From positions 1 to 33,321 of the forward strand of contig JAJDAE010000104.1 in assembly GCA_029262035.1 (NCBI GenBank): 33,321 nt of DNA, in the 5' to 3' direction. The position numbers were made by a program, and so were the translations under genes. This document shows, piece by piece, positions 330 to 12,900 of the stretch (the first letter of the stretch is position 1; every line of letters begins with the position of its first letter). Under the pieces are notes generated by a model. The model was not told where the DNA came from and searched no databases. It saw only the letters and a program-made list of their open reading frames with translations. Origin of the DNA: Candidatus Zhuqueibacterota bacterium (GTDB lineage: Bacteria; Zhuqueibacterota; Zhuqueibacteria; Oceanimicrobiales; Oceanimicrobiaceae).

Positions 330-2000
330 ATGAATGCTTCAGATTTTATCCAGCAATATGCAAATCATCCTAATTGCAAAGCGCCGACCGGTGATCAGCT
401 ACATGCCAAATCCTGGCAAACGGAAGCCCCGTTGCGGATGCTTCTTAATAATCTTGATGCAGAAGTGGCAGAGGACCCGAGCAAATTAGTCGTTTATGGC
501 GGCACCGGACAAGCGGCACGTAATCCCGAAGCTCTAAAAAAAATCATTGAGTTATTACTGGAACTGGCAGACGATCAGAGTCTCCTGGTACAGTCGGGGA
601 AACCGGTTGGAATTATTCCCACGCATCCGGAAGCGCCGCGTGTGCTCATCGCCAATAGCAACCTGGTACCCAATTGGGCAAACTGGGAACACTTTAACGA
701 GTTGCAGGAAAAAGGCCTGATGATGTACGGCCAGATGACCGCCGGCAGTTGGATTTACATTGGCAGCCAGGGAATTTTGCAAGGCACTTATGAAACTTTT
801 GCTGCCTGCGGTGATAAACATTTTGGTGGGAATTTACAGCACAAATTACTGGTTAGCGGCGGACTCGGCGGCATGGGTGGCGCACAACCCCTTGCGGCCA
901 CCATGGCAGGCGCTACATTTCTTGGAGTGGATGTCGACCCCGTTCGCATACAAAAAAGACTCGCCACCCGGTATATTGATAAAATAACGGACTCCTACGA
1001 AGAAGCCAGAGATTGGGCTCTACGCGCGAAAGAACAAGGCGAGGCGATTTCCATTGGGTTGGTTGCGGATATTGGCGATATTTTGAAGCGGCTTTTGGAA
1101 GATGAAATCATTCCCGATATTTTAACGGATCAGACTTCTGCGCACGATCCGATAAACGGCTACGTCCCAAATGGCCTGAGCCTGCAAGAAGCTGAAGAGC
1201 TCAGACAAACCAATCCACAGGATTACAAACAAAGATCGCTAAAAAGTATGGCGCGCCACGTAAGCCTTATGCTGGAAATGCAAAAACGCGGCAGCGTGAC
1301 GTTTGATTATGGCAACAATCTCCGCGAGTTTGCCAAACAAGGCGGCGAACAAAATGCTTTCGATTTTCCCGGATTTGTACCGGCCTATGTCCGTCCTTTA
1401 TTTTGTGAAGGGAAAGGCCCTTTTCGCTGGGCCGCGCTTTCGGGTAAACCTGAAGATATTTACGTAACCGATGAAGCCCTGAAAGAAGCCTTCCCGGAAA
1501 ATAAACGCTTGCTCAACTGGTTAAACGAGGCGCGTGCAAAAGTTGCTTTTCAAGGTCTGCCATGCAGAATTTGTTGGCTGGGTTTGGGCGAACGCCAGAA
1601 AGCCGGGTTGATTTTCAATGATTTAGTCCGAACAGGCAAAGTCAGCGCTCCGATTGTGATAGGCCGCGATCATCTCGACTGCGGCTCGGTGGCCTCCCCC
1701 AATCGCGAAACCGAAGGCATGAAAGACGGCAGCGATGCAGTCTCCGATTGGCCGCTGTTAAATTTAATGGGAAATGCCAGCGGCGGCGCCACCTGGATAT
1801 CCTTTCACCACGGTGGTGGCGTGGGCATGGGGTATTCGCAACATGCCGGCATGGTGGTTCTCGCCGATGGCACAGACCGTGCGGAAAGATGCCTGAAGCG
1901 GGTGCTGCACATCGATCCGGCGCTGGGCGTAATCCGGCACCAGGACGCGGGCTACGATATTGCCATTGAGAAAAGTAAAGAGTTTGGACTTGGGATTTAA
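330..2000 (+). CDS. hutU: Urocanate hydratase (HutU)
   Basis: Converts urocanate to 4-imidazolone-5-propionate, the second step of histidine breakdown, in the cytoplasm with tightly bound NAD+. The 556-aa length is normal for the family. The glycine-rich NAD-binding motif [13 protein letters not shown] lies near residue 177, and the conserved [10 protein letters not shown] segment carries Cys415, equivalent to the catalytic cysteine of characterised urocanases. The C-terminal block with GNASGGATW and [15 protein letters not shown] is also family-typical. The ATG at 330 follows a GGAGA about 9 bases upstream. It is the first gene of a hut cluster with hutI and hutG downstream, but a toxin-antitoxin pair and a decayed gene fragment separate it from hutI. 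No frameshift or missing key residue was seen. Confidence 0.97.
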
Positions 2001-2041
2001 AATTTTTTGCAAATTCAATTATTGCGAAATGAATTAATTAC

Positions 2042-2087
2042 TTGAAAGTTAAGATAGTTTGTAGTATTCTGTAATACAATAAATTAC
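2042..2087 (+). promoter_or_regulatory. Likely promoter and operator of the RHH/RelE toxin-antitoxin pair
   Basis: TTGAAA at 2042-2047 and TATTCT at 2065-2070 are spaced by 17 bases and fit a sigma70-like promoter. The -10 region lies within a small palindrome, GTATT-CTGT-AATAC (2064-2077), followed by an overlapping GTAAT/ATTAC pair (2071-2075 and 2083-2087). Palindromes overlapping the -10 box upstream of an antitoxin gene fit autorepression by the ribbon-helix-helix antitoxin. A strong AAGGAG Shine-Dalgarno site follows at 2088-2093. Confidence 0.4.
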
Positions 2088-2099
2088 AAGGAGATACAG

Positions 2100-2318
2100 A
2101 TGAGTACAGCGCTTTCGGTACGTTTGCCTGAAAAGCTTGCAAAGGAACTTGAGCAATTATCAGGTGAAACGGAAAGACCAAAATCTTTCCATATTCAAAA
2201 AGCATTGGAAATGTACTTAGAGGGACGTGCAGACATGCAAATTGCCTTGGACAGATTAAATGATCCAACGGATTCAATTATCACAGCGGATGATATGAGA
2301 AAGCAACTTGGACTATAA
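2100..2318 (+). CDS. Ribbon-helix-helix (CopG/RelB-like) antitoxin
   Basis: A 72-aa protein beginning MSTALSVRLPEKLAKELEQL, the N-terminal beta strand plus helix of a ribbon-helix-helix DNA-binding domain. The segment RPKSFHIQKALEMYLE forms the second helix, and the acidic C-terminal tail (residues about 45-72) is where such antitoxins grip the toxin. It probably binds its own promoter as a dimer and neutralises the toxin encoded next. Strong AAGGAG site 6-7 bases before the ATG. The toxin start overlaps the last codons of this gene by 11 bases, so translation is coupled. It lies between hutU and hutI on the same strand. Confidence 0.85.
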   Translation: MSTALSVRLPEKLAKELEQLSGETERPKSFHIQKALEMYLEGRADMQIALDRLNDPTDSIITADDMRKQLGL

Positions 2319-2565
2319 AATTAGTTTTAAAAACTCTGTATCAAAAGATTTAAAAAAAATAAATAAGTCTACGACCAAAAATTTATTAGATCGAATTGAT
2401 ACGGAGCTTTCAATGAATGCGGAGAAAAATCCCATATTAAAAGGAAAGTTCGCAGGTTTAAGAAAATTTCGTGCGGGAGATTACCGTATAATTTATTCTA
2501 TTATAAAACCAGACACTGTTCTTATCTTACGTATTGCCCATCGAAAAGAAGTATATCGAAAGTAA
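2308..2565 (+). CDS. RelE/ParE-superfamily toxin (probable mRNA interferase)
   Basis: An 85-aa basic protein with the RelE/ParE pattern: an N-terminal strand (YKISFKNSVSKDLKKI), two helices, then LKGKFAGLRKFRAGDYRIIYSI and a last strand ending VLILRIAHRKEVYRK. The R-x-G-D-Y-R-I-I-Y block and the C-terminal IAHRK are typical of RelE-type ribosome-dependent endoribonucleases. The start must be the TTG at 2308, because an in-frame stop at 2296-2298 leaves no ATG upstream and the homology begins at once. It overlaps the antitoxin end by 11 bases. The pair interrupts the hut cluster and looks like an acquired module. Substrate preference cannot be read from sequence. Confidence 0.85.
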   Translation: MDYKISFKNSVSKDLKKINKSTTKNLLDRIDTELSMNAEKNPILKGKFAGLRKFRAGDYRIIYSIIKPDTVLILRIAHRKEVYRK

Positions 2566-2582
2566 ATGCATGCAAATCCTAA

Positions 2583-2740
2583 GAAAAAATCATACAATGC
2601 TACAATGAAGTGGCAGAAAGTTATGCCGCTGAGCTTTCAAAGAAATTTACTGGGTTCTGAAACCAAGCGGATAGTTTTTGTTTTCCATCTATTTCAGAGA
2701 CGAAACAATTCCTACCGAAAACCGACAATAATAAAAAAGT
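2583..2740 (+). pseudogene. Decayed N-terminal fragment of a class I SAM-dependent methyltransferase
   Basis: Codons from about 2583 to 2660 read EKIIQCYNEVAESYAAELSK, then KKFTGF and a stop. This closely resembles the opening helix of small class I methyltransferases (typically II-x-YYNEVAE-x-YA). There is no start codon in this frame after the TAA at 2580-2582. Downstream, conserved-looking pieces continue only by switching frame (about 2655-2710), and no SAM-binding glycine motif follows. I read it as a remnant in the 183-bp gap between the toxin gene and hutI. The assignment rests on pattern memory, so confidence is moderate. Confidence 0.4.
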
Positions 2741-2748
2741 AGTAAACC

Positions 2749-3996
2749 ATGACCCAACCTCAACACAAACTCATCGGCCCATTCAAACAAGTTGTAACAA
2801 TGGCCGGGCTGCCATTAAAAGGCGCACTGTCTGATGAAACGCTTCCAATAATCGAAGGTGAAACTGGAATTCTTGTAAGCGGACAACACATCGCACAAAT
2901 TGGAAAATACTCAGACTTGCGAAAGGAAGCTGGTGCCCTAAAAGCAGAAATCCATCATCTTGATGGCGATTACGTTTGCCTGCCGGGTTTTATCGACGCG
3001 CATACACATATCTGTTTTCACGGTTCGAGAGCCAGAGATTACGCATCACGAAACGCCGGTAAAGCCTATTTAGAAATTGCAAAAGCCGGTGGCGGTATCT
3101 GGGAATCTGTTACTAAAACCCGTAAAGCCAGCCAGCAAATCCTGGAAGCAGGAATTATTCAACGAGCGGGTCGGCATCTAAAAGAAGGCGTGACCACCAT
3201 CGAAATAAAAAGTGGTTACGGCCTGTCAGTCACAGACGAGTTGAAAATGCTGCGGGCGATTAAGGCCGCCGATAAATCGCACCCTGTGGATTTCGTTGCA
3301 ACCTGCCTTGCCGCCCACGTTAAGCCGCGAGATTTTGATGGCGAACAGGAAGTCTACCTCGAGCATATTTGTGAAAAGTTATTGCCGCTGGTGAAAAAAG
3401 AAAATCTGGCAAACCGGATAGATATTTTTATTGAGGACAGCGCGTTTTCGGTGGATGCCGCCAGAACATATCTCGCCAAAACAATAGAAATGGATTTTGA
3501 AATTACCATCCACGCCGACCAGTTTAATCCCGGCGGCAGTGCTTTGGCTGTGGAATTGGGTGCGGTCAGCGCCGATCATCTGGAGGCTAGCACTGAAAAG
3601 GAAATAACTATGTTGGCTAAAAGTGATGTCATTCCGGTAGCTTTACCCGGGGCATCAATCGGCATCGGTTGTGCCTTTACGCCCGGCAGAAAACTGTTAG
3701 ATGCGGGTGCCTCCCTCGCCATTGCCAGCGACTGGAATCCGGGCTCTGCGCCAATGGGCGATTTGATGGTGCAAGCAGCTATTTTAGGAGCCAGTGAAAA
3801 ACTGAGCAATGCCGAAGTTCTGGCTGGAATCACCTGCCGTGCCGCCGCCACCCTGCAACTGACCGATCGTGGAAAACTGGAATCTGGGGCGCTCGGTGAC
3901 CTGCTGGCTTTCCCCTGCGACCATTACAATGAAATATTCTGGCATCAGGGTAAACTCAGGCCTGAGAAAGTCTGGAAGAATGGCATGGTGGTCTGA
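2749..3996 (+). CDS. hutI: Imidazolonepropionase (HutI)
   Basis: Hydrolyses 4-imidazolone-5-propionate to N-formimino-L-glutamate, the third step of histidine degradation. It is a metal-dependent amidohydrolase of the TIM-barrel superfamily. The metal-binding DAHTH motif carries His85 and His87. The downstream blocks TTIEIKSGYGL, ITIHADQFNPGG, GAVSADHLE and ASDWNPGSAP correspond to the conserved substrate- and metal-binding segments of HutI. The 415-aa length is normal. The ATG at 2749 has only a weak upstream site. The next gene starts 28 bp later behind a good AAGGAG, so hutI and that gene are probably co-transcribed. Confidence 0.96.
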   Translation: MTQPQHKLIGPFKQVVTMAGLPLKGALSDETLPIIEGETGILVSGQHIAQIGKYSDLRKEAGALKAEIHHLDGDYVCLPGFIDAHTHICFHGSRARDYASRNAGKAYLEIAKAGGGIWESVTKTRKASQQILEAGIIQRAGRHLKEGVTTIEIKSGYGLSVTDELKMLRAIKAADKSHPVDFVATCLAAHVKPRDFDGEQEVYLEHICEKLLPLVKKENLANRIDIFIEDSAFSVDAARTYLAKTIEMDFEITIHADQFNPGGSALAVELGAVSADHLEASTEKEITMLAKSDVIPVALPGASIGIGCAFTPGRKLLDAGASLAIASDWNPGSAPMGDLMVQAAILGASEKLSNAEVLAGITCRAAATLQLTDRGKLESGALGDLLAFPCDHYNEIFWHQGKLRPEKVWKNGMVV

Positions 3997-4024
3997 CATT
4001 TCAAGATAAAAAAGGAGTTTTTGT

Positions 4025-4648
4025 ATGGGAGTTACAATCCATTTTCAGGGCACATTAAAAGATTCTAATCTTTTTGATCCACTCATTGAAGAACTGGTTG
4101 ATATTTCCGACACAATGAAATGGGAGTGGGAGGTTTTGGAGGAAGGATGGCCAAAACGTTCAACCGCAAAATTAAAAGATAAGATGCCTGCATTTGCCTT
4201 AAGAGGTATAAACATCAATTTACATCCGGATAGCGAAGAACTCTCGCTTTTTTTCGATACTACGGGAAGAATAAGCACCGCCATGAACCTGATTTTAGTG
4301 CGGGAGGGAAAAATTAAAGGGGAGGATTGCGGCAGTTTTGTCAAAACACAATTTGCGCCGCCCGATGTTCATATTTCCATCATAAAACTATTAAAATATT
4401 TGAAGAAGAGATATATCCCTGATTTGAAAGTGGTCGATGAAGGAGAATATTGGGAGACCGAAGACAGGGAACATTTGATTCGGAAGATGAATTTTCTCGA
4501 CGGAAAGATGGATATATTGGAAGGCGCTCTCTCAAATATTGAAATAGAAAATACTGAGGAGCTTTCCCGTGAACAACTGGCTGTTCGCCTGGCTCAAATA
4601 CTAAAAAGTAGATTGAAGGGGGGCGAGGGTCAGCAGCCAAAAGACTGA
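4025..4648 (+). CDS. Conserved-looking hypothetical protein within the hut cluster
   Basis: A 207-aa soluble, acidic protein beginning MGVTIHFQGTLKD, with no signal peptide or membrane segment. I do not recognise the family. It appears to have an N-terminal alpha/beta part (residues 1-120, with ALRGININLHPDSEELSLFFD looking like paired strands) and a helical, charged C-terminal half (about 120-200) that may form a coiled coil. AAGGAG 8 bases before the ATG is one of the best ribosome sites in this cluster. It lies 28 bp after hutI and 10 bp before hutG, so it is almost certainly in their operon. A role in histidine catabolism is suggested only by position. Confidence 0.8.
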   Translation: MGVTIHFQGTLKDSNLFDPLIEELVDISDTMKWEWEVLEEGWPKRSTAKLKDKMPAFALRGININLHPDSEELSLFFDTTGRISTAMNLILVREGKIKGEDCGSFVKTQFAPPDVHISIIKLLKYLKKRYIPDLKVVDEGEYWETEDREHLIRKMNFLDGKMDILEGALSNIEIENTEELSREQLAVRLAQILKSRLKGGEGQQPKD

Positions 4649-4658
4649 CCTGAAAACT

Positions 4659-5648
4659 ATGATGAAAGTACAGAAGGACTTTTACAAAAAGTCCGATCCG
4701 AATCTGTGGACAGGCCGTGCCGATAATGAGCCGAGCTATTGGCACCAAATCATCCGGTGCGTGGATTTGGCAAAAGAAGATTTTGGTTCGAATAAAACCG
4801 CTGAGAATAAATTCGCGCTTCTCGGCTATTACTGCGATGAAGGCGTAGCCAGAAACCAGGGACGACCCGGCGCGGCAAAAGGCCCGGATGCAATCCGAAA
4901 AATGTTAGGTCCTTTGCCGAACCACTTCCCCGGGGCGACAACTCTAATTGATGCTGGAAATATTTACTGCGTCGATCGTGATTTGGAAGGCGCGCATTCG
5001 GCGCTATCTGCCCGCGTAACCGGGTTACTGAACAAAGGCTTTTTCCCATTGCTCCTTGGCGGCGGCCATGATATTGCCTACGCCCATTACGCCGGAATTA
5101 AAAAACATGTGGGGTCTTCAAAAAAAATAGGCATCATTAATTTTGATGCTCATTTTGATATTCGCCCCGATGAAAATGGCAGAAACTCGGGAACGCCATT
5201 TTATCAGATTGCGCAGGAATGCAAGTCGAACGCCGAGCCGTTCAATTATTTTTGTCTCGGCATCCAGGGGCAATCCAATACAAAAGCACTGTTCAGCACG
5301 GCAAAAGAGCTTGGTGTGCACTATCTTAAAAATCACGATTTCGTGATGAGTAACTTCGGGGAAATACAGGAGCAGCTTGCTGTATTTCTTGAGCAGGTTG
5401 ATCATGTTTATCTCACCATCGACCTGGATGGCTTTTCCTCCGCTTATGCGCCGGGTGTGAGCGCCCCCTCGCCGTTCGGGTTCCAGCCGGATGTCGCTTG
5501 CGAAGTCACCAAATTACTTTGTAATTCCGGTAAACTCATCAGCGCGGATGTTGTTGAACTTAATCCGAATTTTGATTTGGATAATTGTACGGCAAGATTG
5601 GCAGCACGGTTGATTCATTTGGTTTCTTATCATTTGAGTACGAAGTGA
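4659..5648 (+). CDS. hutG: Formimidoylglutamase (HutG), arginase/ureohydrolase family
   Basis: Hydrolyses N-formimino-L-glutamate to glutamate and formamide, the last step of this hut route. The manganese ligands of the ureohydrolase fold are visible: His137 in GGGHDIAYAHYAG; Asp163, His165 and Asp167 in NFDAHFDIRP; and Asp255 and Asp257 in TIDLDGF. The following YAPGVSAPSPFG is typical of HutG. 329 aa is a normal length. The start is one of two adjacent ATGs (4659 or 4662). There is no clear Shine-Dalgarno site, and the gene follows the previous stop by 10 bp, which fits translational coupling. A diverged second copy of its last 68 codons lies at 7041-7250, so the 3' end may have been exchanged. 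Confidence 0.95.
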   Translation: MMKVQKDFYKKSDPNLWTGRADNEPSYWHQIIRCVDLAKEDFGSNKTAENKFALLGYYCDEGVARNQGRPGAAKGPDAIRKMLGPLPNHFPGATTLIDAGNIYCVDRDLEGAHSALSARVTGLLNKGFFPLLLGGGHDIAYAHYAGIKKHVGSSKKIGIINFDAHFDIRPDENGRNSGTPFYQIAQECKSNAEPFNYFCLGIQGQSNTKALFSTAKELGVHYLKNHDFVMSNFGEIQEQLAVFLEQVDHVYLTIDLDGFSSAYAPGVSAPSPFGFQPDVACEVTKLLCNSGKLISADVVELNPNFDLDNCTARLAARLIHLVSYHLSTK

Positions 5649-5736
5649 TTTTACTTTTAAGTTGAAGGTTCTGATGGTTTTGGAGAATAGGGGAGGAAGT
5701 GAAACCCTAAATCTGGTTTCGCTTACGATTGTATTT

Positions 5737-5755
5737 GGTGCGGTATGACCGCACC
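5737..5755. repeat. REP-like palindrome, copy 1 (GGTGCGGT-ATG-ACCGCACC)
   Basis: A perfect 8-bp-arm palindrome with a 3-base loop, followed by TAC. The reverse complement of this site plus its TAC flank matches the site at 6222-6244 apart from one extra base, so the two are inverted copies of one element. They flank a small membrane-protein gene. No T-run follows, so it is a repeat rather than an intrinsic terminator. Confidence 0.7.
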
Positions 5756-5891
5756 TACCCTGACTAATCCACAAAGCTCCTCTTCATCGTCGCTCGGTAA
5801 TACTGCTTCTAGTGATAATACAAATGTAAAAACAAATTTATGGAATATAAGATTTGGAAGAGGTGACAAATATGAAGTAGACAGTAAGTGA
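5745..5891 (+). CDS. Possible short ORF (48 aa) or C-terminal remnant beginning inside a palindromic repeat
   Basis: From the ATG in the loop of the palindrome at 5737-5755, the frame stays open for 48 codons. It gives a serine-rich start (NPQSSSSSSLGNTASSD) and a well-mixed, protein-like end (NLWNIRFGRGDKYEVDSK). The stop is 6 bp before the ATG of the next small gene, whose GAGGA site overlaps this gene's end, as in an operon. No ribosome site precedes the ATG. It may be the tail of a longer gene whose front was lost when the repeat inserted. I do not recognise a family. Confidence 0.3.
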   Translation: MTAPTLTNPQSSSSSSLGNTASSDNTNVKTNLWNIRFGRGDKYEVDSK

Positions 5892-5897
5892 GGAACA

Positions 5898-6113
5898 ATG
5901 AATATATCCGAAAAAGAAGTCTTTTATATCTGTATAAGCTTTGCTTGTGGGATGATTTTGTTATTATTTCGTGACAAGATTTTGCACTTTATTAACTCTG
6001 AAGCAACAGATACTCAAAATGAGGAAAGTAGTAATTCATTATTTCATGTCGGACTTATGTTTCTTTTTATATGCATAGTTGTTATCCTGCGATGGTTGTT
6101 TGGAGCTGAGTGA
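5898..6113 (+). CDS. Small two-helix membrane protein, unknown function
   Basis: A 71-aa protein with two hydrophobic segments, about residues 7-24 (VFYICISFACGMILLLF) and 48-67 (LFHVGLMFLFICIVVILRWL), joined by an acidic, glutamate- and serine-rich loop. Both helices are long enough to span the membrane. GAGGAACA precedes the ATG. It sits between two inverted copies of a palindromic repeat and near two toxin-antitoxin modules. No family is recognised. A type I toxin-like or holin-like peptide is conceivable, but nothing specific supports it. Confidence 0.55.
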   Translation: MNISEKEVFYICISFACGMILLLFRDKILHFINSEATDTQNEESSNSLFHVGLMFLFICIVVILRWLFGAE

Positions 6114-6221
6114 TTTACGTATTATATTTAGTTGAAGATTTGGAATTCCGGCGGAAATTTTAAAATTTATTGCTACTATTTTAATTTTTATTAAATTAAT
6201 TTGATAATTAAAAACAAAGAC

Positions 6222-6244
6222 AGTAGGATGCGGTCATACCGCAC
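6222..6244. repeat. REP-like palindrome, copy 2, inverted relative to copy 1
   Basis: Reads GTAGGATGCGGTCATACCGCACC, which is the reverse complement of copy 1 with its TAC flank plus one extra A. The core is TGCGGTCATACCGCA. Together the copies bracket about 470 bp holding the 5745-5891 ORF and the small membrane-protein gene. The rest of the 6114-6330 gap is very AT-rich, and I see no gene in it. Confidence 0.65.
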
Positions 6245-6330
6245 CAACTATAAACCTGTTCATTTTTTTGATTAGTTAGCCTGTTATTTTTAATTGTAAA
6301 ATTGGTTATAAACAATTATGTTTAGATGAC

Positions 6331-6462
6331 TAATTAATGTCTATCCGGAAAGTGCCTTCCTTTGTCATTCCCGCACGCTCTTAGCGGGAATCCACGCACG
6401 AAAAATGAATGGATTCCCGATGAAAACATTCGGGAATGACGATTGCGGATGGACACTAATTA
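6331..6462. mobile_element. MITE-like element with 17-bp terminal inverted repeats and nested hairpins
   Basis: The left end TAATTAATGTCTATCCG (6331-6347) pairs with the right end at 6446-6462, whose reverse complement is TAATTAGTGTCCATCCG: 15 of 17 match. Inside lie nested inverted repeats: GTCATTCCCG (6364-6373) with CGGGAATGAC (6431-6440), and GCGGGAATCCA (6384-6394) with TGGATTCCCG (6410-6419). At 132 bp with no coding capacity it fits a miniature inverted-repeat element. TA dinucleotides at both ends are compatible with a TA target duplication (IS630/mariner-type), which is inference. It ends 15 bp before the antitoxin start at 6478. Confidence 0.65.
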
Positions 6463-6477
6463 TAGTGGTTAAAAATT

Positions 6478-6720
6478 ATGAATTCCATAGAACTCAAAAA
6501 AAACTTCCATGACCTTATTGACAGTATAGACAATGAGAATCTGTTAGAAAACTTTTATGATCTTTTAAAAAACAGAACCTCGACCAATGAAGGAAAATTG
6601 TGGAAAAGGTTAACTCAACAAGATCAGGAAGAGTTGTTGCTGGCTCTGGAAGAAAGTGACAATCCTGAAAATTTGATAAGCCAGGATGAAATTAAAAATA
6701 AACATCAGAAATGGCTTTAA
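6478..6720 (+). CDS. Antitoxin-like protein of a ParE/RelE module
   Basis: An 80-aa, strongly acidic, helical protein (MNSIELKKNFHDLIDSI ... KNKHQKWL). It resembles the small addiction-module component proteins that precede ParE/RelE toxins: an N-terminal helix pair, then LTQQDQEELLLALEES and a short tail ending in KW. No DNA-binding domain is obvious. No clear ribosome site; the MITE-like element ends 15 bp upstream, so its transcription must start in or before that element. Its stop overlaps the toxin start by 10 bases (6711-6720). Confidence 0.65.
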   Translation: MNSIELKKNFHDLIDSIDNENLLENFYDLLKNRTSTNEGKLWKRLTQQDQEELLLALEESDNPENLISQDEIKNKHQKWL

Positions 6721-7006
6721 AAATATACTGGACTAAGCGGGCGGATAGAAAAGTTGATAGAATTATTGAGTATTTAACGGCAGAATGGGCGAAAGAGTCG
6801 CAACGCTATTCGTCAGGAAAGCTCATGATTTTCTGGATATTTTGTCAGACTTTCCAGAGATTGGAACAATCGAAAACAAAGAGAAGGGAATAAGAGGTTT
6901 TACAATCGTTAGGCAAGTAAATGTGTTTTATAAAATTAAAAACGACCATATTGTTTTGCTCGATTTTTTTGACAATCGTCAAAAACCAAAGAAGAAAAGA
7001 TTTTAG
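6711..7006 (+). pseudogene. ParE/RelE-type toxin gene broken by a one-base frameshift
   Basis: The first frame (from ATG 6711) gives MALKIYWTKRADRKVDRI and IEYLTAEW. The continuation, GERVATLFVRKAHDFLDILS, then FPEIGTI, GIRGFTIVRQVNVFYKI and HIVLLDFFDNRQKP, is in another frame (from about 6788 to the stop at 7006). Joined, they make a complete toxin of about 98 aa with the ParE layout. The break is at the GGG in AATGGGCGA (6784-6792); one extra G restores the frame. It is either a real disabling deletion or a homopolymer base-calling error. It overlaps the antitoxin gene by 10 bases. Confidence 0.75.
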
Positions 7007-7040
7007 ATGTTACCTGTCCGCTCATATTATTTGAGCTTGT

Positions 7041-7250
7041 TATGCGCCGGGCGTAAGCGCGCCCTCGCCGTTTGGGTTCCAACCGGATATCGCTTGCGAA
7101 GTCATCAAATTACTTTGTAATTCCGGCAATCTCATCAGCATGGATGTTGCTGAACTTAACCCAAAGTATGATTTGGATAATTGCACAGCACGGTTAGCGG
7201 CGCGGTTGGTGCATTTTGTGTCTCTTGAATTAATGAACAAGGCAACTTAA
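7041..7250 (+). pseudogene. Orphan second copy of the 3' end of hutG
   Basis: Codons 7041-7250 start at YAPGVSAPSPFGFQPD and run to a stop. By hand alignment, 54 of the first 67 residues equal the C-terminus of the HutG at 4659-5648 (from its Tyr263). Homology starts abruptly at 7041 with no start codon, catalytic residues or ribosome site, so it cannot encode an enzyme. Differences include many conservative changes (V/I, F/Y, I/V), as between two functional orthologues rather than random decay. This suggests either a tail left behind by recombination with another hutG or an old partial duplication. Confidence 0.88.
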
Positions 7251-7276: not shown

Positions 7277-7495
7277 ATGGTTCGATTTAACACCGAGTAT
7301 ATAGAAGGTTACGTAATTGAACCGCTTGCCCGGAAAATGCTAAAAGATAATCCTCAATTGCAAAAAGAGTTTGAAGAGGCATTGAGCAATAAAGGTTTTG
7401 CTAATAATCCCCAAGCTCGTTTGTCTTGGTTCTATAAACGCAGCCCTTATTTTGACCCGAATTATTTGCTTTATCCGGTAGGGAGAGAATTGTAA
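7277..7495 (+). CDS. Small protein resembling the C-terminal tail of M14 carboxypeptidase-like proteins
   Basis: A 72-aa protein (MVRFNTEYIEGYVIEPLARK ... SWFYKRSPYFDPNYLLYPVG). The pattern 'PLA-x(n)-P-x-L-x-x-EFEE ... NP-x-ARL-x-WFY-x-RSPY-D ... LYPVGR' recalls the end of a group of M14 zinc carboxypeptidases, but no zinc-binding part is present. AAAGGA lies about 8 bases before the ATG, so it may be expressed on its own. A terminator hairpin follows. It is either a gene remnant or an independent small protein; the family link is from memory and uncertain. Confidence 0.5.
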   Translation: MVRFNTEYIEGYVIEPLARKMLKDNPQLQKEFEEALSNKGFANNPQARLSWFYKRSPYFDPNYLLYPVGREL

Positions 7496-7550: not shown

Positions 7551-10500
7551 TTATTAAAACCATTTTCCCTGTCAGCTGCGAGCCATCTACTTTTAATTTA
7601 TAAAAATATGAACCGCTGGCAACCTGTGCACCGGCATCATTACGTCCATTCCAGGAAACAGTGTATGCACCCGCTGTTTTGCGTTCGCTGATCAACTCAC
7701 GTATTTTCCGTCCCAAAATATCATAGATGTGTAATTCAACCTGGCCGGTATTTTCCAGTGAGTAGGCTATAGTTGTACTTGGGTTGAAAGGATTCGGGTA
7801 ATTTTGGTGCAGCTGGAATGTTGTGACAATTATGGCTTTCTCCGAAACACCGGTTACTGTCTCCTCGCCTTCTCCCAGCATCATAATTTTTGCAACCGAA
7901 TCCAGGTTTGTAGCATTATGTGTAATCCACAATGTATCGATGTAGCTGCCATTAAATCCGGGGGTAAAAGCAATCGCCACTTTGTAGCTGTCGCCAGGGG
8001 CAATGCTGAAAGTGCTGTCGGCCACATCAAAATAGCCGCTGTTTTCGGTGAACGTGCCAACTAAATGTTGGGTAGAAAGCGCTGCGTTGTAAATTGTCAG
8101 TGTGTCCGTCACGGTTGAGTCAATCCTTGCTTCACCCAAATCGACCAGGGTGGTATCAAAGGTCATTTCGATGATGGCTGCTATCTCGGTGACGCCTTCA
8201 CCCTGCAGGGGAATTTCCAGGGGCGAAGCGAGATTGGTTGCATTGTGCGCAATTTCCATAAGTGCACTTTTACTGCCCATGGAACCTGGAACAAAAGTAA
8301 CGGTCATCTCGTGAGTATCGCCGGGAGCAATATCAAAACTGCTGCCGGTTACATCAAAATTCCCACTGTTTTCCGAAATCACTCCGGTTAAATTTTCCGT
8401 TGAGTTGGCTGCGTTGATAATTGTTAATGTTTTGCTCTTGGATTCACCAACGAAAACATTACCGAAATCCACGACACTTGTATCCATACGCATGGCGATG
8501 ATGGTGGCAGCGCTTTTACCTGCCAACGGAACGGCTACCGGTGAACTCAGATTCAGAGCATTGTGCACGATTTCCAATGTGTCGGCCTTTGCTCCCTCCG
8601 AATCCGGCGTGAAAGCTATAGCCACTTTGTGACTGTCTCCCGGCGCTATATCAAAACTACCGTCGGTAATTTCAAACTCTGCAGTGCTATTGGAAACTGA
8701 ACCGGTCAGAGCCGCAATGGATTTCGTTGAGTTATGGATAGTCAGCGTATCCTGTGCCGAGCTATTAGGTAAAATTTCGCCAAAGTTAAATTCGAATGCA
8801 TCCAAGCTCATGCTAACGCCTGCACCTCTACCTTGCATTGGCAGCTCCGCGGGTGAATTTGTATTGGTAGCGTTGTGCATAATTTCCAGCAATGCGCTTT
8901 GGATACCGAGTGTATCCGCATTAAACGTGATGGTCACTTCGTGGCTACCTCCGGGTGAAATGTCAAAGCTACCATCGGTTACGTTGAATACATCGCTGTC
9001 TTCAGAAACCTCACCTGTCAAATTCGCCGCCGAACCCGGCGCGTTGGAGATGGTTACAACTTGCTGCGCCGACTCCCCGACGGCTACATCGCCAAAGTCG
9101 AGCTGGATCTTATCAACGCTCATGTCTATGTCTTGGTTGGTACCTTCGCCTTGCATAGGGATTTCGGCCGGACTGCTTTGATTGCTGGCGTTGTGCGCAA
9201 TCGCCAGCGTGGCAGTTTTGGTATCTGCACTGTTAGGCGTAAACGTAACAGTTACTTCATGGTTGCCACCTGGGGCAATATCAAAGCTGTCGTCTGAAAC
9301 ATCGAAATCCGAGCCGTCGTCACTGACTGACCCAGTTAAATTATCGGTTGAAGCTGCGGCATTCGAGATGATTAATGTTTTCATCCTGGAATTACCAATT
9401 TTTACATTGCCGAAGTTCAAGCCTGTTTTGTTCACACTCAAGTAAACGCTGGTGGCAACGCTTTGCCCGCCAACGGGTATTTCAGCAGGAGAATTGATAT
9501 TGGTGGCATTGTGGGTAACTTCTAGTGAAGCGGTGTTATTGCCGGCTTCACCGGCCTCGAAGGTGAGGGTTGCCTGGTGGCTGGCACCCGGCGCAATGTT
9601 AAAACTTGCCCCGGAGATATTCATGCTTGAACCTTCGGTCAAAGCGCTGTTTTTGAATGCCACGCTACCGGTTAAATTCCCCGTGGAAGCGGCATCGTTG
9701 AAAACAGTCAAAACCTCTTGAGTCGTTTCTCCTGACAAAACATTCCCGAAGTTGATTTCAGTTTTATCCACGCTGATATCGATGTTGTTGGGTTGTGAGC
9801 CAATGCCTTCCATCGGTATTTCTGTTGGGGAACTGTAGTTGATGGCATTGTGCTCAATAAAAAGTAAAGCTGTTCTATCACCCGCAGCTTGCGGTCTAAA
9901 CCGGATGGTTACCGTGTGCCCTAATTGCTGGGTTTCAGAAGTTTCTGCCTCATGCCCTGGCTGGGCACCAGTTATCGGGGCAATGTCAAACGTCGCACCA
10001 TCGATAATCTCAAAATCATCGCTGCTTTCCGAAACCGTACCGACCAGATTAAAAGGGCCGTTCACTTTTCCTTCTCTGTTAGGAGTGTGTGTGCCATATA
10101 GGTTGGTAATTGTAATGGTCGCAATTTCCGACTCACCCAAAGCGGCCAAGCCAAAATCCAGTTCGGTTTTGTCAATGCCCATCAGGATTTCCGGCGGGGT
10201 GACATTAACGGTCATAGGAACATCCGTTGGTGTAGGTTTGTTGCCGGCGTTATGCTGAATTAGCAGGGCTGCATTTGTAATACCCTGAACCTCACCACCG
10301 AACCTGATTCTTACCGTATGATCCTGTCCGAATGGAATATCGAACGCGTTGCTATCAAGAATTTCAAATTGATTTTTTCTTGCATCGGGACCGACTATTG
10401 AAAGCCGGCCACGCAAGTTACTGCTGGTTTGGTCAATTTTTTCGGGAGTGCTTCCGTCATTAGGCCTATTCGTTATTACCAGATCTAAAACTTTGGCGCT

Positions 10501-12900
10501 TCCCAGTGGCACATCGCCAAAGTCAAGCTCCGACGCGCTTAAGTCCAGGGAGGCATCGGTCTCCTGTACAAAACCAATACCTGATAACGGTACATTATCT
10601 ATAGGTGAAGCAATATTGATCGCATCATGCTCGATGCTCAACACAGCGGTTTTGTTACCGGCTGAAGTCGGCGCGAACCGGATGGTAACCTCCTGCGTTT
10701 CATTTCGCGAAAGATTAAAGCTGCCGTTAAGTACGCTGAAATCCGGACTATCTAACGAAACGGTTCCAGTCAAATTAGTGTTTGAGCCTTCCTGGTTATG
10801 TATGTGCATGATAATATCCTTTGACAACCCAACTTCCACACTATCGAAAACGAGCGGATCGCCGCCCACTGTCATCATAGCTCCGAGTCCGACACCAGCC
10901 ATTAGTATTTCCACAGGAGATGTTTCATTAGCGGCATTATGAGCTATATTCAGTGCACCGTTTTTGCTACCTATAGAAGTTGGGGCTAATTGTACGGTTA
11001 CCTCATGGCTGCCGCTAGGAGCAATATCAAAACTGCTACCGCTGACAATGCTGTATTCATCGTCATTTTCAGTAACTGTGCCGGTTAAGTTTGCTGATGC
11101 ACCGGCATCATTAAAAATAGTTAAAACCTCCTGGCGTGTTTCCCCAATCCTGACCACTGAAAAACCAAGGTCGGTTTTATCAAAAGAAATCAAACTTCCT
11201 GCGGTAATATTGGCATCTATACCAATGTAGACTTGGGGAGCCGTATTGCGGCCATTGTGGATAAATCCCAAAGAAGCATTTTCAGGGCCTGGCATTTGCC
11301 CGGCATCAAAGCGAACGGCAACTTCATGTGCCGTGCCAGCAGGAATATCAAATTCCGCTCCACCAATAATGGTAAAAGTACCATTGTTGTCGTCAGAGTC
11401 GACTATTGAAACAGAGCCTTGCAGGTTGTCCCACTGTACCCCGGCAAAATTTACATCCGGATTGAGGTTTTGTATCAGCAACGTACCCATTTGTGAACCA
11501 CCCGGCTCTACGTCACCAAAGTTAATGCCTGAAAAATCCGTGTTGAAAAAAGGATAAGCTGTGGCTTCTAAACCAACTCCTTCCATTGATAAGTCGAAAG
11601 GTGAACTGGTGTTGGTCGCATTGTGCTCAATACGCACCTTGCCGCTTTTCGTACCTGTGGAAGTTGGTTCGAAAAGCACCTGCACGTCATGGCTGGAGCC
11701 AGGGGCAATGTCAAAACTACTTCCAGTGAGAATTCTAAATTCTTCGCGATTATCATCCACGGTGCCAGTTAAGTTTTCAGTTGAATTAGCATCGTTAGAA
11801 ATAGTAAACCAAGCGTAGTGAGATTCCCCGACGGTGACGCCACCCAAATCCAGGCTTGCAGGCGAGACTTCCATGTTGACAACTGTTTGAATTCCTGTCC
11901 CCGAAAGCGGAACCTCTTCCGGTGAAGAAGTATTAGTAGCATTATGCTCAACCCTCAGCGTACCGCTCTCACTGCTTCCTGAAGTTGGAGAGAAGGTCAC
12001 ATTTATCGAATGACTACCGCCCGGCGCAATATCAAAACTGGTATTGCCGGTAGCATTTCTAAAAACCGCACCGTCTACAGAAAAAGTTCCGGTTAAATTT
12101 GTAGTGGAGCTGTTATCATTAGAAACTATGAGTGTTAGCACTGCGGTCGAACCGACGGGAATAAGGGTACCAAAATCAAGGTTTGTGTGGCTTAATTCCA
12201 TATTGCGCATGTGAATACCCGTTCCTGTCATGTTGAGGTCTGTAGGCGAAGAAGTATTGGTTGCATCGTGCCCAATACGCAGGGTACCATTCTTATTGCC
12301 TTCGGAACCTGGCGCAAACTGAACGGTTACAGTATGACTGCCGCCGGGAGCAATATCAAAATTACCGCCACTGACAACACTGAACCCGGACGTGTTTGTG
12401 GCAACGGTTCCTTGTATATTGTCGCTATTATTTGATGCTGCCTTCAACTGGAAGGTTTTTTGCCCGGTTTCACCGACCAGAACATCACCAAAATCTATAT
12501 CTCCGGGATTTCCGTCAAAGTCTCTGCGGTCTAAGGCTTCTCCCGCCATGGGAATTGTAGCAGGCGACCCGACATTTGTAGCATTGTGTTGGATGCTTAA
12601 TGTGGCGCTCTTATTGCCTCCCGAATTGGGTGCAAATTTTATGGTTACCGTGTGACTACCGCCCGGAGCAATATTAAAACTACTATTACTGACATTGAAA
12701 TCGCCGCTGTTAGATGAAGCAGAGCCAACCAAGTTTGCAGCTCCGCCATTTGAAATAGTTAATTGTTTTTCATTGGACCCGCCAACGTAAACCTGTCCAA
12801 AATCAATACTGGTTGAACTCACACTTATTTTCTGCGCAAAAGCAGAACTAGCGCCACAAAATAAAAGTAAAGTTGTAATTAAATTTATGTAGTGTTTCAT
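7546..12900 (-). CDS. Giant secreted protein of 15 tandem choice-of-anchor-D Ig-like domains with a T9SS type A sorting domain
   Basis: 1784 aa. A signal peptide (residues 1-22) has a likely cleavage AFA|Q. Residues about 23-1680 are 15 successive domains of mostly 100-110 aa, longer in 5, 8 and 9. Each has the pattern 'DFG-x-V-x-x-G' near its start, 'NLTGTV' in the middle, 'SFDIAPGGSHEVTVTFAP' and a closing 'HNATN-x-x-SP-x-E-x-P-x-x-G'. This is the ASPM/SPD-2/Hydin-like (choice-of-anchor D) fold. The last 90 residues (1695-1784) are a T9SS type A/FlgD-like sorting domain with QNYPNPFNPST and SWNGRNDAGAQVASG. The protein is therefore expected to cross the outer membrane and be displayed or released. 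GAGGAG precedes the ATG. It is the last of three same-strand exported-protein genes below a hybrid sensor gene. An adhesin or structural fibre is plausible; the ligand is unknown. Confidence 0.93.
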   Translation of the reverse strand: MKHYINLITTLLLFCGASSAFAQKISVSSTSIDFGQVYVGGSNEKQLTISNGGAANLVGSASSNSGDFNVSNSSFNIAPGGSHTVTIKFAPNSGGNKSATLSIQHNATNVGSPATIPMAGEALDRRDFDGNPGDIDFGDVLVGETGQKTFQLKAASNNSDNIQGTVATNTSGFSVVSGGNFDIAPGGSHTVTVQFAPGSEGNKNGTLRIGHDATNTSSPTDLNMTGTGIHMRNMELSHTNLDFGTLIPVGSTAVLTLIVSNDNSSTTNLTGTFSVDGAVFRNATGNTSFDIAPGGSHSINVTFSPTSGSSESGTLRVEHNATNTSSPEEVPLSGTGIQTVVNMEVSPASLDLGGVTVGESHYAWFTISNDANSTENLTGTVDDNREEFRILTGSSFDIAPGSSHDVQVLFEPTSTGTKSGKVRIEHNATNTSSPFDLSMEGVGLEATAYPFFNTDFSGINFGDVEPGGSQMGTLLIQNLNPDVNFAGVQWDNLQGSVSIVDSDDNNGTFTIIGGAEFDIPAGTAHEVAVRFDAGQMPGPENASLGFIHNGRNTAPQVYIGIDANITAGSLISFDKTDLGFSVVRIGETRQEVLTIFNDAGASANLTGTVTENDDEYSIVSGSSFDIAPSGSHEVTVQLAPTSIGSKNGALNIAHNAANETSPVEILMAGVGLGAMMTVGGDPLVFDSVEVGLSKDIIMHIHNQEGSNTNLTGTVSLDSPDFSVLNGSFNLSRNETQEVTIRFAPTSAGNKTAVLSIEHDAINIASPIDNVPLSGIGFVQETDASLDLSASELDFGDVPLGSAKVLDLVITNRPNDGSTPEKIDQTSSNLRGRLSIVGPDARKNQFEILDSNAFDIPFGQDHTVRIRFGGEVQGITNAALLIQHNAGNKPTPTDVPMTVNVTPPEILMGIDKTELDFGLAALGESEIATITITNLYGTHTPNREGKVNGPFNLVGTVSESSDDFEIIDGATFDIAPITGAQPGHEAETSETQQLGHTVTIRFRPQAAGDRTALLFIEHNAINYSSPTEIPMEGIGSQPNNIDISVDKTEINFGNVLSGETTQEVLTVFNDAASTGNLTGSVAFKNSALTEGSSMNISGASFNIAPGASHQATLTFEAGEAGNNTASLEVTHNATNINSPAEIPVGGQSVATSVYLSVNKTGLNFGNVKIGNSRMKTLIISNAAASTDNLTGSVSDDGSDFDVSDDSFDIAPGGNHEVTVTFTPNSADTKTATLAIAHNASNQSSPAEIPMQGEGTNQDIDMSVDKIQLDFGDVAVGESAQQVVTISNAPGSAANLTGEVSEDSDVFNVTDGSFDISPGGSHEVTITFNADTLGIQSALLEIMHNATNTNSPAELPMQGRGAGVSMSLDAFEFNFGEILPNSSAQDTLTIHNSTKSIAALTGSVSNSTAEFEITDGSFDIAPGDSHKVAIAFTPDSEGAKADTLEIVHNALNLSSPVAVPLAGKSAATIIAMRMDTSVVDFGNVFVGESKSKTLTIINAANSTENLTGVISENSGNFDVTGSSFDIAPGDTHEMTVTFVPGSMGSKSALMEIAHNATNLASPLEIPLQGEGVTEIAAIIEMTFDTTLVDLGEARIDSTVTDTLTIYNAALSTQHLVGTFTENSGYFDVADSTFSIAPGDSYKVAIAFTPGFNGSYIDTLWITHNATNLDSVAKIMMLGEGEETVTGVSEKAIIVTTFQLHQNYPNPFNPSTTIAYSLENTGQVELHIYDILGRKIRELISERKTAGAYTVSWNGRNDAGAQVASGSYFYKLKVDGSQLTGKMVLIK
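7857..12834 (-). repeat. Tandem array of about 15 coding repeats, unit near 315 bp
   Basis: The array encodes the 15 Ig-like domains. The most conserved stretch encodes FDIAPGGSH and appears on the plus strand as variants of GCCCGGAGCAATATCAAAACT, about once per 315-390 bp. A second conserved stretch encodes HNATN (plus-strand GCATTGTG/GCATTATG). Units are diverged at the DNA level, so this is an old expansion kept by selection rather than a recent slip-strand array. The long plus-strand open frames inside are shadows of these repeats. Confidence 0.85.

Follow-up and report, generated by a model that had tools for sequence, protein, structure and literature searches.

Two diverged copies of a hutG gene end around an accessory island, and similar brackets at other genes, in a Zhuqueibacterota genome

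Homology-anchored gene capture in described systems

The entry of small accessory genes without an integrase into chromosomes has mostly been inferred from the comparison of strains. The classical attachment site of integrative elements is the end of a gene whose reading frame stays intact. Homology-facilitated illegitimate recombination has been described for Acinetobacter, Streptococcus pneumoniae, Pseudomonas stutzeri and E. coli conjugation (PMC3240628, PMC2884548). The mechanism has been demonstrated both in bacteria capable of transformation and during conjugation of E. coli (PMC3240628), and it has been invoked for small variable segments (PMC2884548). In Vibrio cholerae, the same mechanism has been proposed for the displaced 3' ends of T6SS effectors and for immunity arrays (PMC5361080).

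The hutG locus analysed here resembles the products of homology-facilitated illegitimate recombination in having a homologous anchor on one side, a non-homologous junction on the other, and foreign DNA without an integrase. It differs from them in that the recombination was followed there in the laboratory with marked DNA, whereas the hutG case is known from its product only, and in that the non-homologous end at hutG appears to have fallen back into the anchor gene itself, giving rise to a displaced gene end. With the T6SS effector/immunity arrays of V. cholerae and with orphan Rhs/CDI tails, the locus shares a new gene end accompanied by cargo, an old 3' end pushed downstream, and remnants stacked one behind the other. 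Those genes, however, encode toxins under diversifying selection, whereas the genes concerned here are housekeeping genes. The e14 element at icd in E. coli K-12 likewise supplies a foreign tail to a working gene and leaves the old tail as a fragment (icdC) with silent-site divergence, yet it measures 15 kb and carries an integrase, in contrast to 1.4 kb without one at hutG. In Helicobacter pylori, long target duplication at restriction-modification genes also places short addiction-type cargo between long direct repeats; there, however, the repeat is the target duplication, whereas the hutG copies had diverged under selection.

The mechanism is already known and is seldom this clear at ordinary metabolic genes; new here are the orphan tail of an M14 carboxypeptidase behind hutG and the recurrence of the scar in the same genome. 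A scar composed of an intact gene, cargo, an orphan end and silent-site divergence can be read in a single genome, which makes such events countable without close relatives. It also lets the distance of the donor be estimated, and it separates these events from tandem duplication, target duplication and prophage scars. Several scars of this kind lie here at ordinary metabolic and repair genes.

The hutG tails and the island between them

The window, by which we mean the whole stretch of DNA that was analysed, is one entire contig (C7) of 33,321 bases. It belongs to a 5.3 Mb genome in 372 contigs, which is probably metagenome-assembled and has a contamination estimate of 0.37%. As the initial annotation had claimed, the tail of hutG is present twice (Table 1). 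Positions 5444-5627 and 7040-7223 align without gaps (blastn E 5e-55), and codon-by-codon comparison of the last 67 codons of hutG with the orphan gives 54 of 67 identical residues, exactly the figure that had been counted by hand. The orphan copy, which lies 1.6 kb downstream of the copy in use, encodes the C-terminus of the arginase family only (PF00491 profile positions 218-275, E 3e-14) and is the sole other close hutG-like stretch in the genome. The hutG tails provide, at one end, the homology to the resident locus. At the other, similarity ends abruptly upstream of 7040, with 4/10, 6/20 and 13/40 bases identical, indicative of a non-homologous junction.

Table 1 Features of the hutG region in the window and paired gene ends on other contigs
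Feature	Location	Strand	Remarks
hutU	330-2000		hut cluster member
RHH-ParE toxin-antitoxin pair, separate, between hutU and hutI	2100-2565	+	PF01402/PF05016
hutI	2749-3996		hut cluster member
hutG, formimidoylglutamase, intact	4659-5648	+	TIGR01227 295 bits (cut-off 229), PF00491; includes tail copy 1 (codons 263-329)
Tail copy 1, in use, stop codon included	5445-5648	+	85.3% identical to copy 2 over 184 nt
Palindrome GGTGCGGTATGACCGCACC	5737-5755		inverted pair with 6227-6245 (arms 5729-5753 / 6229-6253)
71-aa ORF, hydrophobic segments	5898-6113	+	no family match
Second palindrome copy, inverted	6227-6245
MITE-like element, 132 bp, 17-bp terminal inverted repeats	6331-6462		dispersed family in own genome
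Putative antitoxin, 80 aa, by position only	6478-6720	+	no Pfam or NCBIfam match
ParE/RelE-type toxin gene, frameshift near 6785	6711-7006	+	PF05016 E 3.5e-9 read across break
Orphan tail copy 2, from hutG codon 263 through the stop codon	7040-7250	+	no start codon, no hutG sequence upstream
Orphan C-terminal tail, M14 zinc carboxypeptidase	7293-7495 (ORF 7277-7495)	+	directly behind hutG orphan
uvrA head, twice	L112 (contig C9) 3-233 / 1789-2016		275 bp, 87%; cargo PorV-like gene
Amino-acid permease head, twice	L190 (contig C321) 9438-9515 / 10427-10504		78 bp; cargo glyoxalase-family gene
T9SS-sorted protein tail, twice	L187 (contig C214) 4685-4855 / 5551-5721		171 bp, 92%; cargo RHH/ParE pair
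Cys/Met PLP-enzyme tail, twice	L141 (contig C245) 773-1053 / 9100-9347		about 250 bp, 82%, frameshifted; cargo 8 kb two-component genes

The two tails diverged under purifying selection. The pair has a dS of 0.54 (interval 0.28-1.0) and a dN of 0.08 (0.079), giving a ratio of 0.15, and none of 5000 neutral simulations with an equal number of changes reached so few amino-acid changes. For a phylogenetic placing of both tails against the hutG body the sequence is too short and saturated, and amino-acid polarity was used instead. Where the outgroups allow a difference to be polarised, our reading of the alignment assigns about five derived residues to the used tail and one to the orphan. The orphan's distance to 28 outgroup HutG proteins is the same as that of the used tail or slightly smaller, which argues that it is not a long-decayed duplicate. 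Taken together, the substitution pattern and the polarity indicate that the orphan belonged to a functioning hutG during almost the whole divergence and became detached recently; an old decaying duplicate is thereby excluded, and a target duplication becomes unlikely. The view put forward in the initial annotation, that the copies differ like orthologues and not like a decaying duplicate, thus agrees with both the polarised changes and the dN/dS that it had proposed to compute, which is far from neutral. A tandem duplication of the tail together with its downstream DNA was rejected, since the island is not repeated behind the orphan and the substitutions are orthologue-like.

The island has a GC content of 34% versus 48-50% in both tails. 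Its palindrome is confined to it, with two copies there and none elsewhere in the genome. The MITE-like element, whose ends read TAATTA[A/G]TGTC[T/C]ATCCG, has 52 matching stretches in the genome, at more than 30 other places. Neither half of the toxin gene matches ParE_toxin (PF05016) alone; the match appears only across the frameshift, and the toxin-antitoxin pair of the island is therefore probably dead. For the putative antitoxin, the ORF upstream of the toxin gene, our search of Pfam and NCBIfam matched no known family. No integrase, excisionase or phage gene was found in the 1.4 kb of 5649-7040, no match to 5445-7250 was found among phage and plasmid records, and neither the putative antitoxin nor hutG matched viral contigs; a known mobile element or phage was rejected on these grounds. 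Palindromes, a MITE-like element, tiny ORFs and a toxin-antitoxin pair had been listed beforehand; the dead state of the toxin had been missed and the M14 tail had been overlooked.

This second orphan tail encodes the last 67 residues of an M14 carboxypeptidase; its closest full-length relatives, M14 proteins of 600-618 aa in three genomes of another family of the class, have C-termini with 72-76% identity to it, while the full-length M14 homologue of the genome itself is only 38% identical to it. Two gene ends, each without its 5' part, are thus stacked behind hutG. The M14 tail may have been left by a truncating event that came earlier, possibly when the hut genes themselves arrived, an idea suggested by the lack of such a hutG in all seven family relatives and by the similarity of HutU to its Roseivirga counterpart.

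We searched for hutG in 84,980 species genomes, in the family (seven relatives) and in the phylum. A hutG of the window's kind was not found in the seven family members, and the nearest relatives, in Bacteroidota at about 55% identity and in one genome of the same class at 45%, are too distant for an empty-site comparison. HutU and HutI are 85% and 65% identical, respectively, to Roseivirga (Bacteroidota) proteins. Judged by these identities and by the absence of hutG from the seven family relatives, the hut genes (330-5648) look horizontally acquired. Between them lie an RHH/ParE pair and a 207-aa ORF that has no relatives; around this pair (2100-2565) we found no gene-end bracket or flanking repeat.

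Paired gene ends elsewhere in the genome

We scanned 1.43 Mb of the genome (about 27%), partly picked as MITE-bearing contigs, for orphan gene ends no more than 12 kb away from the parent gene, leaving tandem paralogues out of the count. Besides the window, four further clear brackets were found, all of the same strand and geometry and all around accessory genes (Table 1). Geometry of this kind alone would also be expected from tandem duplication; the single copy of the cargo and the silent-site pattern argue against it. In the uvrA pair, 24 silent changes stand against 3 amino-acid changes in 77 codons (dS 0.67, interval 0.37-1.24; dN 0.02); its orphan has one stop, and the case touches a contig edge. 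The permease pair shows 10 silent and no amino-acid changes (dS 0.78, interval 0.31-3.1). These intervals overlap with that of hutG and are compatible with donors at a similar distance, being too wide for proof. In the family relatives, the cargo was not found in the uvrA and permease neighbourhoods, where local gene order differs too. The T9SS bracket is the weakest case, as sorting domains recur in many genes; 11 of its 13 differences fall in the first 45 bases (p 8e-6), a clustering that suggests later gene conversion. Across the brackets, the orphans show graded decay, being intact, interrupted by one stop or frameshifted.

Several candidates were rejected. A fragment in L196 (33 residues, 51%) has the right geometry, but the match is too weak for inclusion; L125 begins with a tail piece, truncated by the contig edge, whose arrangement departs from the bracket geometry; and the repeat in L150 lies outside the listed coding ORFs. 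The direct repeats L117 1118-2119 and L122 2323-3300, which flank ORFs resembling REP-associated tyrosine transposases by eye, were set aside. As a control, we scanned 400 kb from a genome of the same class (5 contigs), which returned mostly tandem paralogues, together with one doubtful head bracket beside ORFs looking like transposase remnants.

Origin of the brackets

We favour, with moderate confidence, the reading of the hutG structure as the scar of an additive, one-sided, homology-anchored and integrase-free integration of DNA from a diverged relative, which displaced the old gene end. The incoming DNA would have carried the relative's hutG end (about 85% DNA identity) and the DNA downstream of it, with the toxin-antitoxin pair and small ORFs. 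The incoming end would have paired with the resident hutG, and homologous recombination there would have yielded an intact enzyme gene with resident body and incoming tail, while at its other end the incoming DNA would have re-entered the resident hutG near codon 262 through a junction lacking homology, the old tail being kept and displaced to 7040-7250. We infer entry as linear DNA, by natural transformation, and not as a circle, and likewise the direction of the exchange. A ComEC homologue in the genome is a weak pointer, since one is also present in control genomes, that of E. coli among them. The integrase-free route is favoured because the window contains no integrase, the cargo elsewhere consists of ordinary chromosomal genes, and the scar recurs at other genes. 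Counting against it, the incoming and the resident DNA cannot be told apart, and RecA works poorly on brackets of 78-275 bp with 85-87% identity, although the original anchor may have been longer. The initial annotation had proposed that a foreign hutG 3' end recombined in and pushed the native tail downstream. The orthologue-like tails and the recurrence of the scar support the exchange by homology, with the displaced tail as the candidate native one. Its further proposal, integration without a visible integrase, accords with the island's gene content and with the recurrence, tempered by the chance that an integrase has been lost and by the fact that the mechanism was known before.

An element with an integrase that was later deleted does produce the same anatomy; it would have attached at the hutG 3' end and supplied the gene with a new tail, as e14 did at icd. 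The e14 scar, measured alike, spans 165 bp with 153/165 identical bases, dS 0.36 and dN 0.016, and the hutG copies likewise differ mainly at silent sites. The 1.4 kb, however, hold none of the genes expected of such an element and show no phage or plasmid similarity, and the other brackets lie at unrelated genes, two of them enclosing ordinary cargo at 5' ends, a distribution that a single integrase would fail to account for; we regard this origin as possible but unlikely. Two full-length hutG genes in tandem, paralogues or xenologues, of which later insertions and deletions left only the tail of the second, would also show low dN/dS as expected between two working genes, and the adjoining M14 gene has likewise lost its 5' part. 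Yet a separate full duplication and truncation would be needed for each bracketed gene, with the cargo-facing end alone surviving every time, and our searches of the 84,980 species genomes, the family and the phylum gave no relative that carries a pair of such hutG genes. Such a history seems quite unlikely.

Insertion of a toxin-antitoxin unit with a long target duplication, whose copies were identical at first and diverged afterwards, would suit the toxin-antitoxin pairs enclosed by two of the five clear brackets, although the brackets amount to 0.9% of the scanned sequence (post hoc p ~8e-4); of the five ParE loci in that sequence, two lie inside brackets where 0.04 would be expected (post hoc). 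The other three brackets lack such a pair, however, and a freed tail should gather amino-acid changes and stops, of which the hutG orphan has neither; the uvrA and permease orphans, too, differ almost only at silent sites, making this explanation hardly credible. The probably metagenomic assembly in 372 contigs, with the uvrA case at a contig edge, could suggest a chimera in which contigs of two related organisms meet at one gene. Had shared words caused a false join, however, the sequence would run straight from gene to gene and not through 1.4 kb of cargo and a junction sharing no sequence. The window contains no N runs, the contamination estimate is low, and the orphan decay is graded, and an artefact is thus very improbable.

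Beyond hutG, the integrase-free, homology-anchored reading could be extended to the proposal that in this lineage accessory genes, toxin-antitoxin pairs included, regularly become established at housekeeping-gene ends through one-sided homologous capture of DNA from a sister species, which we offer tentatively and consider doubtful. If true, the brackets would serve as recorders, with silent-site divergence giving donor distance and orphan decay the age of the event.
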